Shown here: positions 13,930 through 18,468 of the stretch, piece by piece
Numbering within the stretch: position 1 is the stretch's first letter
Layout: every line of letters starts with the position of its first letter
From: an uncultured Opitutia bacterium
GTDB taxonomy: Bacteria > Verrucomicrobiota > Verrucomicrobiia > Opitutales > Opitutaceae
Length of the DNA: 64,000 bases
NCBI GenBank assembly: GCA_903855985.1
Contig: CAIOAO010000074.1
Location: 186,001-250,000, forward strand
Reading direction: 5' to 3'
Notes under the pieces: model-generated
Told to the model about the DNA's origin: nothing
Databases searched by the model: none
The model's input: the letters and a program-made list of their open reading frames with translations, nothing else
Made by a program: the position numbers and the translations under genes

Positions 13930-14601
13930 GTGCAGGTTAGGCCCGTGCAGTCCGAACCACCCCGCCAGACACCATTGGAGCCCACTTGGGGCGATTGGGT
14001 CAGCTGCATCTGGTCGGCGGGATCCTGCTGGTTCATGGCGGGGATGTTTGTGACGGCCTGGTGGTGGCCGCGGGAACTGGACAACGGACGCTGGGTGAAA
14101 CTCGGCGTGGGCATCCTGGTGCTGGAGTTCATCCTGATCCATGCGGGTGGATTTTTGAATGCCTACTCGGCGCAAAAAGCCGGCTGGGACCGGACGTGGA
14201 GGCTGATCGCCCTCACCGCCTTCTACACCCTGTTTGGGGTCGGCTTCGCGCTCGCCTTCCAGAGCTGGTGGTTGCTGGGGTCATTCGCGCTGGTGATGAC
14301 GGGCCGCCTGTGGTCGGTCTTCGCCGGACAAACCAACATGGACCGCGCCATCTCGCAGCGCCGGGTGGTCGCGAGTGTGATGCTCTATCTCGTGCTCGTC
14401 TTTGCCACGCTCTTCCTGCCGGTGCCGCGGGGCGGGCTCAACGAGCCGCTGCTCAACGAAGTCTGGCCGGCGCGAAAAACGGGTGCATGGGAGCGGCAGC
14501 CGGAGCGCGCGCTCGCGATGGGGGCGGCGTATTTTCTGTTCCTCGGGCTGGTCGAGCTGCGGCCGCCGCGCAAACTGCCGCCGCCGTTCAAGGTCACCTG
14601 A
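13930..14601 (+). CDS. Unrecognised Trp-rich integral membrane protein
   Basis: 223 aa if it starts at GTG 13930; GTG 13945 is an alternative. Five or six hydrophobic segments are visible at about residues 26-48, 58-78, 91-132, 143-163 and 195-212. Trp is common (WGDW, WWWPREL, FQSWWLL). A conserved-looking loop is [17 protein letters not shown] do not recognise the family. It is divergent from the XRE regulator and 65 bp upstream of mgsA, so it may be cotranscribed with mgsA. Confidence 0.75.
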
Positions 14602-14666
14602 TTGACCCGCAATCTTCACCGGCCGCGGGTGGCTGCCGGGAACGCGACGTGCTATGTTGTCGGCCT

Positions 14667-15185
14667 ATGGCGTACAAAAAAATCGTGATGGAGTTGGACA
14701 AGAAGATCGCGCTGGTGGCGCACGACCACAAGAAGCGCGACCTGATCGAGTGGGCGAAGTTCAACCGCGACCTGCTGGCGCACCACAAGGTCTACGCGAC
14801 CGGCACCACGGGCCAGATGCTCGAGGAGGAACTCGGCTTCAGCATCACCAAGCTCCAGAGCGGTCCGCTGGGCGGTGACCAGCAGATCGGCGCCAAGATC
14901 GTGGACGGGGACATCGACTTCCTGATTTTCTTCTGGGACCCGCTCGAGCCGCAACCGCACGACCCCGACGTGAAGGCGCTGCTGCGCATGGCGGTGGTCT
15001 GGAACATCCCGATCGCGTGCGACCGCGCGTCCGCGGACTTCATGATTTCCTCGCCGCTGATGGACAAGCGCTACCTCCGGCTCGTCCCGGACTACGACGT
15101 CTACCGCGCGCGGGCGATTCCAGAAGGCGAGACGGCCAAGCCGGCGGCCGCGGAACGTCCCGAGGTCAAGAAGACCGCGGCGTAG
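14667..15185 (+). CDS. mgsA: Methylglyoxal synthase
   Basis: 172 aa. It converts dihydroxyacetone phosphate to methylglyoxal and phosphate, a bypass that relieves sugar-phosphate stress. Catalytic and substrate residues fall at exactly the E. coli positions: His19-Asp20, Asp71 in GGDQQIG, Asp91 in FFWDPLE, His98 and Asp101 in PHDPDV. The last 25 residues are an Ala/Lys/Glu-rich tail of no known role. Start ATG 14667 gives [10 protein letters not shown]. Confidence 0.97.
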
Positions 15186-15267
15186 CCGAGGGGGAGATGG
15201 CACCCGCGCGGGCGGGAACCAAATGACAACGTTGCCTTGCGGCGGCGGGTGAGTTGCATGGCCGCGC

Positions 15268-15741
15268 ATGCCTTCCACCCCCATCCCGGGCTCCACCGGC
15301 GAGATTCTGACTGAACTGCCGTCGGCCTACCTGCCGCATCCGGCGACCGGTCTGCTGCATCTGCCGCGGTTCCTGGCGAAGTGCACGTACGTCAAGCGCC
15401 ATGGCGCCCTGCCGGCCAGCTATGCGAAAAACTACAAGCGCGGGATGGACCGGTTCCTCTGCCTGCACCTGGGCATTGATCCGGCGGCGGTGGAGCAGAT
15501 CGTGCACGAGTGCCTCGACGCCGGGCGGGACGACGCGGAGCGGGACCGGCGCCTGTGCGCGCTCTTCCCCGCGGACCGGCACGTCGCCCAGTGGAACCGG
15601 AGCTACGTGCAGAAGGGCATGACGCCGGCTGGCCGCGAGTTTCTGGCGGAGGCGCTGACCGCGATGGGCTGCGCCGACCGGATTGGCCAGATCACCAGCG
15701 TGGTGGACCTGATCGAGTTCGACGAGGGCCGGATCGAGTAG
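15268..15741 (+). CDS. DUF5069 domain protein (paralogue 1)
   Basis: 157 aa. It shares with the gene at 46802-47254 the pattern of a basic N-terminal helix (LPRFLAKCTYVKRHGALP), a middle FLCLHLGID block, a conserved Trp-containing helix and a C-terminal VVDLIEFDEGR that aligns with MFDYIDFDEDR. The family is common in Verrucomicrobia and has no established function. It is soluble with no signal peptide. The next gene downstream is convergent. Confidence 0.75.
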   Translation: MPSTPIPGSTGEILTELPSAYLPHPATGLLHLPRFLAKCTYVKRHGALPASYAKNYKRGMDRFLCLHLGIDPAAVEQIVHECLDAGRDDAERDRRLCALFPADRHVAQWNRSYVQKGMTPAGREFLAEALTAMGCADRIGQITSVVDLIEFDEGRIE

Positions 15742-15753
15742 GCCGGCGACGGC

Positions 15754-15785
15754 AAAAAAAGAGCCGCCCCAAAAAGGAGCGGCTC
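15754..15785 (-). terminator. Intrinsic terminator of the polylysine micro-gene
   Basis: On the minus strand a 10-bp stem (15776-15785 with 15761-15770, one non-Watson-Crick pair) with a 5-nt U loop is followed by seven U. It begins 25 nt after the micro-gene stop. On the plus strand the stem is not followed by T, so it is oriented for the minus-strand transcript. Confidence 0.9.
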
Positions 15786-15809
15786 ATGGTTTGGGCGAAG
15801 TAAGCGACC

Positions 15810-15857
15810 TTACTTCTTCTTTTTCTTCGCCTTCTTCTTAACGACTTTTTTAGCCAT
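15810..15857 (-). CDS. 15-aa polylysine micropeptide
   Basis: The encoded peptide is MAKKVVKKKAKKKKK: ten Lys in fifteen residues, ATG 15857 to TAA at 15812-15810. Three features argue that it is a real gene: an AAAGGAA Shine-Dalgarno-like sequence about 10 nt upstream, in a genome segment where most genes have none; a strong intrinsic terminator 25 nt downstream; and no other gene on that strand for the terminator to serve. The composition resembles the basic tails of histone H1-like and AlgP-like DNA-binding proteins. It could bind nucleic acid or be a leader peptide. No clear promoter was seen. Confidence 0.6.
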   Translation of the reverse strand: MAKKVVKKKAKKKKK

Positions 15858-16004
15858 GATGTTTTGTTCCTTTGTTGGTTAAGACCCGGCCGCATCATCT
15901 CCGAATGGGTAACGCGCGCGCGGGCCAGTGTGAAACTCTGCCTCACTGCGCAGGCGCGCAACACAAATGCGCGGGAGAAAATTTCCCGCTCCGGCGCCTC
16001 CGCG

Positions 16005-17117
16005 CTAAAAAACAAAATCGCCGGGCGCGTGGGCGCGCCCCGGATTGCCGATGACGCGACGGATGGACTCGAGGTTTTCGCGGACGAGTTCGCCCATGGA
16101 TTCGCAGCGCAGGTATTCGGGCCGCCCGTAATGCAGCGCGAGGCTGGCGCGGAGCTCGTGCACCTTCTCGCGCGGGGCGATCGGGTCCGGCACCATTTCC
16201 GTCAGCAGCGCGTTCAGGCGCAGGTGGGCCAGCTCTGCGCGCTGCAGCATCAGGGTCTGCTCCTCCCGCTGGTATTGCAGCGCGGTCTGCGCGTGCAGGT
16301 GCTTGGTGCAATAGGTGACGATCGGGGTGTTCTCCTTGAAGAACTGGGGCAGGTAGAAATTTTTCCGGCCGTTGTAGGATTGCTGGTCAAAATCCATCGC
16401 GCGGATGCGTACCTGGGCGCCCTCAAAGTCAGGCGTGATAACCACGACGTAGTTGTACGAGCGCATGTCGCCGAGCAGGCGCACGAAACAGCGCTCGTTA
16501 AACTTCACCATCTCCTTGGCCACGCGCACGGGGCTGAGCTGCGGGTCGTTCAGCCAGCGGTTGATGAACGCGTCACCGGGAATGCCGGCAATGTGCTCCT
16601 CGACGAGGGTTTTGCCCGCGGTGAGGAAGTTGAGCCGGTTCGGGGACAGCAGGTGCTCGAGCTCGAGGCCGTAGACGCGCGAGGCATCCGCCTTTTTGAC
16701 GTAAAAGTAGTCCTGGTTGTCGTTGTAGGCGTTGACGACGCGGATGCGGAACGGCGTGGAGTTGCCAAAGCTGCAGAAATCCACGCGGTCCACGTAGACG
16801 TGCTCCATGATGGCGTGGTCACCGTCGACTTTGAGCAGCGCGTAGACGCGCTTCAGGTCCTCGTACAGCGCGGACATCTCGTCGGCGCGGTAGATCACGC
16901 TGTCCCAGAGCGTCGGCTTACCCGCGGCGTCGGTCAGCGGCATCGCCTCCTGGAAATCATGCAGCCGTTCGTAGGTGACCGGCAGCTCGCGCTCGCGCTT
17001 GTAGCGCGCGAGATAGCCGCGCAGCCCGTCGAGCACGGGAAAACACGGTTTTTTTCGCGTCGGAGGAAAGGGAGTGGTCGGGGCCTCCATGCCGCCACTC
17101 TTGGTCCCCGCGGGCAT
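16005..17117 (-). CDS. Unannotated protein with protein-kinase-like (APH-type) motifs
   Basis: About 370 aa from ATG 17117 (ATG 17090 also possible). I do not recognise a named family, but kinase-like elements occur in order: a lysine-bearing strand YFYVKKAD (Lys141/142), a hinge-like LVEEHIAGIPG near residue 175, a catalytic-loop-like LLGDMRSYN in which Asp217 and Asn222 have the D-x4-N spacing of aminoglycoside/choline kinases, and AMDFDQQ with Asp242 as the metal-binding DFD. The 19 residues between loop and DFD fit this fold. A helical C-terminus follows. No signal peptide. The substrate is unknown, and activity is inference. Confidence 0.75.
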   Translation of the reverse strand: MPAGTKSGGMEAPTTPFPPTRKKPCFPVLDGLRGYLARYKRERELPVTYERLHDFQEAMPLTDAAGKPTLWDSVIYRADEMSALYEDLKRVYALLKVDGDHAIMEHVYVDRVDFCSFGNSTPFRIRVVNAYNDNQDYFYVKKADASRVYGLELEHLLSPNRLNFLTAGKTLVEEHIAGIPGDAFINRWLNDPQLSPVRVAKEMVKFNERCFVRLLGDMRSYNYVVVITPDFEGAQVRIRAMDFDQQSYNGRKNFYLPQFFKENTPIVTYCTKHLHAQTALQYQREEQTLMLQRAELAHLRLNALLTEMVPDPIAPREKVHELRASLALHYGRPEYLRCESMGELVRENLESIRRVIGNPGRAHAPGDFVF

Positions 17118-17277
17118 GGTGGCGAGCCGGCTCTGGTCCGGCGCATGGAAAATCCGCTGGTCCCGGCGGTGAAACGGATTTGGCTCCGCGCCTGCAATGG
17201 ACCCGTGCCCTGATGGGTTTGCCCGCCGCATGGACGGCGCCACCCTCGGCCCGGCCCGGCGTGACCAGCATCCCGCG

Positions 17278-18468
17278 CTAGGTGCGGAAGCGTCGGGCGA
17301 GGGCCGGTGAAATCTTGGGAACCGTGCGCAGCGCGCCGCCGGCGCGCAACGACTCCGTGGCCATGTAGCCGGTCGCGATGCTCTCCCGCGCGGCGAGGGG
17401 CGAGGTGTCGGTTTTCCCGCCGTTCCGCGCGAAGCCCAGAAATTCCTCCATGATCCGCGGGTCGGCGCCGCCGTGCGCACCCTTGCTTACGGGAATGCGA
17501 TAGGTGCGGTCGCCGGATTCATCGTAACCCTGCTTGCGGCGGTTCCACACGCGCACGCACGTGCCGGGCTCACCGTTGCCGAAATTTTCCATCCGGCCCT
17601 CCGTGCCGATCACCATGTAATTGCGCCAGTAGTCCGGGGTGTAGTGGCACTGGGCGTAGGTCGCGAGGACGCCGTTATCGAGCTGCATCTGCACGGTGCT
17701 GAGATCCTCGACGTCAATGCGGTGGTTGAGGCCGCGGGCCCGGGTCGGCGGAAACGCGGTGAGCTGCATCTCCCCCGGGCGCAGGCGGCTCAGGCCCTGC
17801 GGGGCGGGTTTGCGGCCGGGCAGGTCGCCGTAGAGCGAGAGGGCGCCGAGCGCGTTGACCTTCCGGCTGTAGCCGCCGCAGAGCCAGTGGATGATGTCGA
17901 GGTCGTGCGCGGCCTTCTGCAGCAGCATCCCGGTCGTGTAGCGGCGCTCGGCATGCCAGTCGCGGAAGTAAAAGTCGCCCCCATGGCCCACAAAATGCCG
18001 CACCCAGCACGCCTTCACCTCGCCGATGGCACCGCCGTCGATCAGGGACTTCATCTTTCGCACGAACGGCATGTGCCGCATGTTGTGGCCGACGTAGAGG
18101 CGGGCGCGGGTCCGGGCGGCGGCCCGCAGGATGCGGTCGCAGCCGGCGATGGTGAGCGCCATCGGTTTCTCCAGGTAAAGCGTAAGGCCGCGACGCAGCA
18201 CCGCCACGGCCTGCTCCTCGTGCAGGAAATCCGGCGTGGCGATGATCACGGCATCGAGCTTCCGGTCCAGCAGCGCCCGGTAATCACCCGTGGTGAAAAT
18301 CCCGGCGCCATAGTCGGCGCGGTTGCGCGCGAGGGTTGACTCGCTCACATCGCAGCAGGCGACGACCCGCGAGCCACGCCCGGGGCGGTGCGCGAGCGAA
18401 CCGAGCAGCTGGCCGCGTCCGCCGGAGCCGATGATGCCGAGCTGCAGGTCAGAGTTTTTATTTTTCAT
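17278..18468 (-). CDS. Gfo/Idh/MocA family oxidoreductase
   Basis: 396 aa. The NAD(P)-binding GIIGSGGRGQLLGS is at the N-terminus, the conserved LYLEKPMAL motif near residue 100, and the Gfo/Idh C-terminal domain follows with a His-containing LLQKAAHDLDIIHW where the catalytic-site helix lies. It probably oxidises or reduces a sugar or inositol-type substrate. No twin-arginine or Sec signal is present, so it is cytoplasmic. It lies downstream of an AraC regulator on the same strand (39-bp gap), suggesting co-transcription. Leader C-rich, no Shine-Dalgarno sequence. Confidence 0.92.
   Translation of the reverse strand: MKNKNSDLQLGIIGSGGRGQLLGSLAHRPGRGSRVVACCDVSESTLARNRADYGAGIFTTGDYRALLDRKLDAVIIATPDFLHEEQAVAVLRRGLTLYLEKPMALTIAGCDRILRAAARTRARLYVGHNMRHMPFVRKMKSLIDGGAIGEVKACWVRHFVGHGGDFYFRDWHAERRYTTGMLLQKAAHDLDIIHWLCGGYSRKVNALGALSLYGDLPGRKPAPQGLSRLRPGEMQLTAFPPTRARGLNHRIDVEDLSTVQMQLDNGVLATYAQCHYTPDYWRNYMVIGTEGRMENFGNGEPGTCVRVWNRRKQGYDESGDRTYRIPVSKGAHGGADPRIMEEFLGFARNGGKTDTSPLAARESIATGYMATESLRAGGALRTVPKISPALARRFRT

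Follow-up and report, generated by a model that had tools for sequence, protein, structure and literature searches.

A lysine-rich micro-gene of variable length in Opitutaceae and its possible histone H1-like product

In a 64,000-nucleotide stretch of DNA from an uncultured Opitutia bacterium (hereafter the window), a 15-residue lysine-rich open reading frame (ORF) stands by itself between two larger genes, with a ribosome site and a terminator of its own. Taken with its neighbours and signals, this micro-gene is beyond chance. The explanation we favour, and consider probable, is that it is a real monocistronic micro-gene whose product would be a minimal H1-like protein, comparable to HC2 or to the tail of AlgP, binding polyanions by charge. 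As predicted, the peptide would be a disordered lysine run broken by A, V, P or T and devoid of a fold, and would bind DNA, perhaps RNA or polyphosphate, through its charge. At the same locus in related genomes the ORF ranges from 15 to 113 aa, growing in whole codons with the frame kept.

The micro-gene and its signals in the window

The features of the region are as follows.

15268–15741, plus strand: convergent neighbour, a DUF5069 gene (PF16798), used as a synteny marker
15754–15760, minus strand: T7 tract of the terminator, on the same strand as the ORF and directly 3' of the stem
15761–15785, minus strand: terminator stem-loop GAGCCGCTCC/GGGGCGGCTC, 10 pairs, 8 of them G-C
15810–15857, stop included, minus strand: micro-ORF MAKKVVKKKAKKKKK, with the ATG at 15857–15855 and the TAA ending at 15810; orthologues exist
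15867–15873, minus strand: Shine-Dalgarno (SD) sequence AAAGGAA, 9 nt 5' of the ATG
15928–15935, minus strand: TTCACACT, 21 nt after the TTGCGC of the upstream box
15956–15969, minus strand: upstream box CATTTGTGTTGCGC, recognisable by eye 5' of the ORF across loci
16005–17090, minus strand: upstream neighbour of 361 aa, used as a synteny marker

Ten of the 15 residues of the peptide are lysine. The initial annotation had described a 15-residue lysine-rich gene with a ribosome site and a terminator 25 nt downstream, giving no strand; the gene and both signals were confirmed on the minus strand, and the distance from the ORF stop to the terminator stem measured 24 nt, with the 10-pair hairpin followed by T7. 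Its remark that the ribosome site is unlike that of most genes here proved roughly right, as an SD-like 4-mer precedes the first ATG in 9/34 long ORFs of the window, a crude count in which true starts may differ. The micro-ORF is the single ATG ORF of 12–50 aa with at least 60% lysine in the 64-kb window, and none arose in 40 simulated sequences with the window's dinucleotide frequencies. Together with a frame that is open in all eight genomes aligned below, these results bear out the earlier view that the arrangement is hard to explain as noise. The micro-gene is presumably transcribed and translated.

Scanning of positions 14500–17500 detected seven terminator sites versus 2.9 in shuffles, and a sigma-70 promoter scan of the same interval found none. 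We rejected the terminator stem as a repeated element, since it is without enrichment in the window (19 occurrences versus 16.2 expected). One of the seven sites is a weak one on the plus strand at 15797–15816 (8 pairs, 3 G-C); it overlaps the end of the micro-ORF and, lying antisense to it, might terminate the DUF5069 transcript. The 361-aa upstream protein has no match in Pfam or NCBIfam and is present in 43/57 genomes, own included, the others being 51–98% identical; it is probably outside the micro-gene's function.

The upstream box CATTTGTGTTGCGC is probably a promoter or operator. It could be recognised by eye upstream of the ORF in 22/26 loci, changed in some, and the other four, all from g61, are without it (g61 and similar codes are genus labels of the genome search tool). 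The two Cephaloticoccus isolates described below carry a degenerate version, CATTTAGATTGCGC and CATTTATATTGCGC. The motif TTCACACT also occurs in G007, a member of the window's genus, and differs in other genera. The box as a general regulator site was rejected: the own genome holds one exact copy and four matches at up to two mismatches, the exact one included, versus 11 for the reversed control.

Conservation and length of the ORF at one locus

A DNA search with the 201-bp region against 57 genomes returned eight genomes of the window's genus, own included, at E 1.6e-25 or better; weaker matches were short pieces. The eight can be aligned from the upstream box through the T-run. In all of them the ORF is open, and the sole indel within it is one whole codon, giving 15 or 16 aa, whereas indels of 1 and 2 nt occur in both flanks. 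CATTTnTnTTGCGC, TTCACACT 21 nt later and the AAAGGAA ribosome site are invariant in 8/8, and so are the start region, the codons for the last lysines and the terminator stem's 5' arm. A ninth carrier, G007, encodes a 20-aa form, MAKKAKKKVAKKKTAKKKRK, in the same place and flanked by both neighbours; a GGAGG site and a hairpin resembling a terminator accompany it. In G011 the unit is retained beside DUF5069, with no match to the 361-aa gene.

G009 and G010 lack the whole unit, the 361-aa gene being followed by the convergent DUF5069 gene within about 20 nt. The finding that the initial annotation had named as speaking against a gene, a broken ORF with the terminator serving another gene, was not seen; what is lost in these two is the entire unit. 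G005 has no match to the unit, and its 361-aa gene is partly covered, so it was counted as undecided. The 12 same-genus genomes thus comprise nine with the unit, two without and one undecided, and the micro-gene is dispensable because two species lack it. Pairwise codon differences, silent to changing, number 71:76 in the window's genus, 38:18 in g59 and 124:60 in g65; inspected by eye, most changes exchange A, V, P and T for one another, and some swap K with one of these four. Taken together the differences speak for the favoured explanation; that changing ones are as many as silent ones in the window's genus speaks against it.

For a wider view, loci were fetched via the 361-aa gene and the best 80 of 436 were inspected for Lys-rich ORFs that are complete and at most 120 aa. 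Such an ORF lies between the 361-aa gene and the convergent DUF5069 gene in 19 of these 80; with L179, a MAG contig that ends inside a Lys-rich ORF of at least 101 aa, the total is 20. Among the 60 other loci of the best 80, six end within 450 nt past the 361-aa gene stop and are undecided. Another 22 with a DUF5069 match, read ORF by ORF, have gaps that are a few nt wide or hold no K/A/P-type ORF, and the rest contain no complete Lys-rich ORF of at most 120 aa.

Within one Opitutaceae clade, the micro-gene adjoins the 361-aa gene in 22/24 members, with DUF5069 on the far side in 21. We agree with the initial annotation that the gene falls below usual gene-calling limits, and the synteny check it had proposed near the DUF5069 gene in Opitutaceae did recover homologues in this clade. 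The peptide is 15–21 aa long in 15 of the clade's carriers and 31–34 aa in four; long forms of 89 and 113 aa occur in the isolates Cephaloticoccus capnophilus CV41 and C. primus CAG34, respectively. By group, sizes are 15–16 aa in the window's genus except in G007, 17–21 aa in MAGs such as UBA2377, and 19–34 aa in Cephaloticoccus MAGs and relatives. The letters are nearly all K, A, P, V and T.

A different gene of about 110–119 aa (MIKGQKVVCINDTF...) was noticed near DUF5069 (L093:597-953, plus strand). It is also present in the gaps of L152, L156, L167, L175, L184, L191 and L200 (7/23 gaps by eye) and has no Pfam match.

Likeness to H1-like proteins and alternative readings

The 113-aa form of C. 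primus (L204) matched the HC2 profile PF07382 at 53.1 bits, above the cut-off of 40. Scores below it came from the C. capnophilus form of 89 aa (21.3), from one of 34 aa (14) and from a g20 form of 81 aa (29.1), and a 67-aa g20 form had no HC2 match; the search has a 20-residue minimum, and the window's 15-aa peptide is shorter than that. NCBIfam H1-like models scored the 113-aa form at 36–37 bits, below their cut-offs of 80 and 135. Because the HC2 profile is composition-driven, we read the match as an H1-like make-up, not as proven descent. Of the two roles suggested at first, the nucleoid- or RNA-binding cation peptide gains support because this same-place protein passes the HC2 cut-off; the lysine-sensing leader is not supported, on gene order given below. 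PF07382 was found in 8/38 relatives (two over the cut-off), all outside the window's genus, and was absent from the own genome (G000) and 11 other same-genus genomes. The Hc1 domain (PF07432) was found in 0/38 genomes, own included, and would not fit into a peptide of 15 aa. Two HU-type genes are present in the own genome.

With HC2/Hc2 proteins (PF07382; hctB of Chlamydia, BpH1 of Bordetella) these peptides share a K/A/P/V/T make-up, a repeat-like character and length variation in whole codons; a Lys-rich, low-complexity chain with A, P, V and T is a trait of the HC2 class, and they have it. They differ in size, as Chlamydia Hc2 is given as 165–237 aa in PMC2848022, whereas 15–34 aa is usual here and the window's form has 15. 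The KPAA-repeat C-terminal domains of Pseudomonas AlgP and PhaF have a similar Lys/Ala/Pro composition, and DNA binding in vitro has been reported for KPAA peptides (PMC9239181). In AlgP and PhaF, however, the tail follows an N-terminal domain, whereas here the peptide is free and the ORF begins at the Lys-rich stretch.

The peptide presumably binds nucleic acid, with the short form probably retaining the activity of the long one. On the other side, a charge of about +10 may give only weak DNA binding at cell salt, or the peptide may be degraded quickly.

We hold it rather unlikely that the product is a ribosome- or RNA-associated basic peptide instead of a DNA binder. Its very short length, lysine richness and good ribosome site would suit such a role, as would the higher affinity for RNA of Hc2 compared with Hc1 (stated in PMC2848022), but the H1-like class is indicated by the logic of the K/A/P repeats and by the long form's match to HC2, and the patchy distribution is unlike that of a ribosomal protein.

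Somewhat less likely again is a small regulatory RNA made of leader and terminator, with the ORF incidental or secondary. This idea draws on a leader of about 100 nt between the box and the ribosome site, conserved in 12 g59/g65-type sequences (L068-L078 and L179), in which a 12-pair helix is predicted; as ribosome-site sequence, GGAGCA is present in 12/12 of the aligned leaders. Of the 15 predicted leader pairs, one has both partners changed and three fail to pair in one or two sequences, which hints faintly at a secondary structure in these 12. With the terminator included, folding of the window's RNA lies 3.0 sd below that of shuffles, and the terminator stem has, as noted, a 5' arm that is invariant in eight genomes. 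An RNA function would nevertheless leave the frame-keeping growth of the ORF without explanation: start, frame and Lys-rich make-up are kept over 15 to 113 codons, and the leader varies among genera whereas the ORF type is constant. Moreover, none of 20 Rfam matches from seven loci (up to E 5) reached its family threshold. The leader could possibly serve autoregulation.

That the ORF is a decayed, functionless remnant of a larger H1-like protein seems improbable to us. The longer syntenic forms of 89 and 113 aa and the two genus members without the gene would fit decay, but the eight aligned genomes all preserve an intact start, frame, ribosome site and terminator, and the ancestral length is estimated near 21 aa, with long forms confined to one subclade. 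The estimate comes from an 82-row tree, built by a quick method from the 361-aa protein and rooted at the midpoint. The carriers group in a single 24-row set, in which 22 rows have the micro-gene; support for the set is 81, below the 95 mark. Three changes are required to explain presence on this tree, and they can be read as a single gain plus two losses. Brownian estimation of log length placed the base of the set at about 21 aa and the ancestor of the two Cephaloticoccus isolates at about 101 aa; L179 was entered as 108 aa against 101 aa on recount, a small difference in one row. Going by this one protein tree, the short form would be ancestral, and with an ancestor near 21 aa the histone-like long forms appear to have grown out of a micro-gene.

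What favours a lysine-sensing leader peptide or attenuator is that consecutive Lys codons precede a terminator, yet the idea can scarcely be entertained. In the 19 loci where both neighbours were seen, the DUF5069 gene, which is convergent, is the next one identified past the ORF; 17 of these loci have no same-strand ATG ORF of at least 40 aa before that gene, while the other two (L143, L145) have only same-strand ORFs of 41–52 aa. The peptide, moreover, reaches 113 aa.

Building on the H1-like micro-gene, we put forward a bolder proposal, tentatively and with some doubt: the free 15–21-residue Lys-rich peptide may be a working chromatin- or polyanion-condensing factor, and the micro-gene the seed from which the 89–113 aa HC2-type protein arose through repeat gain in Cephaloticoccus. 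If true, the birth path of a bacterial histone-like protein would be made visible, and the similar micro-genes at an unrelated place would mark a recurrent Opitutaceae device. Since sizes run from 15 to 113 aa at one locus, the shortest still-acting H1-like tail and the origin of low-complexity histone-like proteins become testable subjects. A conserved basic micro-protein of this kind could escape both genomics and proteomics, because it lies below gene-calling limits and because proteins whose lysines lie close together may be understated after treatment with trypsin (PMC9239181). In the open-access literature, at the level of titles and abstract openings, no lysine-rich micro-gene was named for Opitutaceae or other Verrucomicrobiota.

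Similar ORFs at other loci

Among 200 genomes of the taxonomic family, 131 gave a match at E <= 1, often a weak one, to a covariance model built on ribosome site, ORF and terminator; G006, whose sequence is among the eight behind the model, is absent from the matches listed. From the top of this list 70 loci were decoded, with six rows passed over (G007 and five further hits of genomes). A stand-alone ORF made almost entirely of K, A, P, V, T, R, S and G was present at some point of the retrieved stretch at 43 of the 70 (44 with L089, which has one Q, by eye), and 37 of these ORFs (38 with L089) are at most 40 aa. At another 12 loci the product is a different protein, one whose N-terminus is shared and which ends in a Lys/Ala tail, and 15 (14 if L089 is counted as an ORF) have neither type.

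The tailed protein, of about 200–280 aa, belongs to other Opitutaceae genera (L010:947-1543; also L079, L080, L084-L087, L090, L094, L099, L103, L105 and L115). The N-terminus of L010, the one tested, is a ribbon-helix-helix domain, and the gene is also found in L085. The Lys/Ala tail often ends in ...KKKKK and is followed by a terminator-like hairpin, as in the micro-gene; the protein is nevertheless far longer and a separate gene, and we rejected it as an orthologue.

Ten loci from genera g47, g57 and g60 (L114:1061-1108, minus strand; L089, L096, L101, L102, L107, L109, L117, L122 and L129) carry Lys-rich ORFs of 15–22 aa, MAKKKPAKKAKKKKK and similar, with terminator-like hairpins; by eye, AGGA stands some 9–12 nt before the start in two of the ten. 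The genes beside them are related to one another, and the single one tested matches 4-alpha-glucanotransferase (malQ-type); five of the ten loci also share a gene whose tested member matches YebC. This malQ-side place is unrelated to the 361-aa/DUF5069 place. At six further loci (g20, g61), forms of 23–81 aa lie beside a shared gene of about 115 aa that has no Pfam match, and DUF5069 was also found in two of the six.
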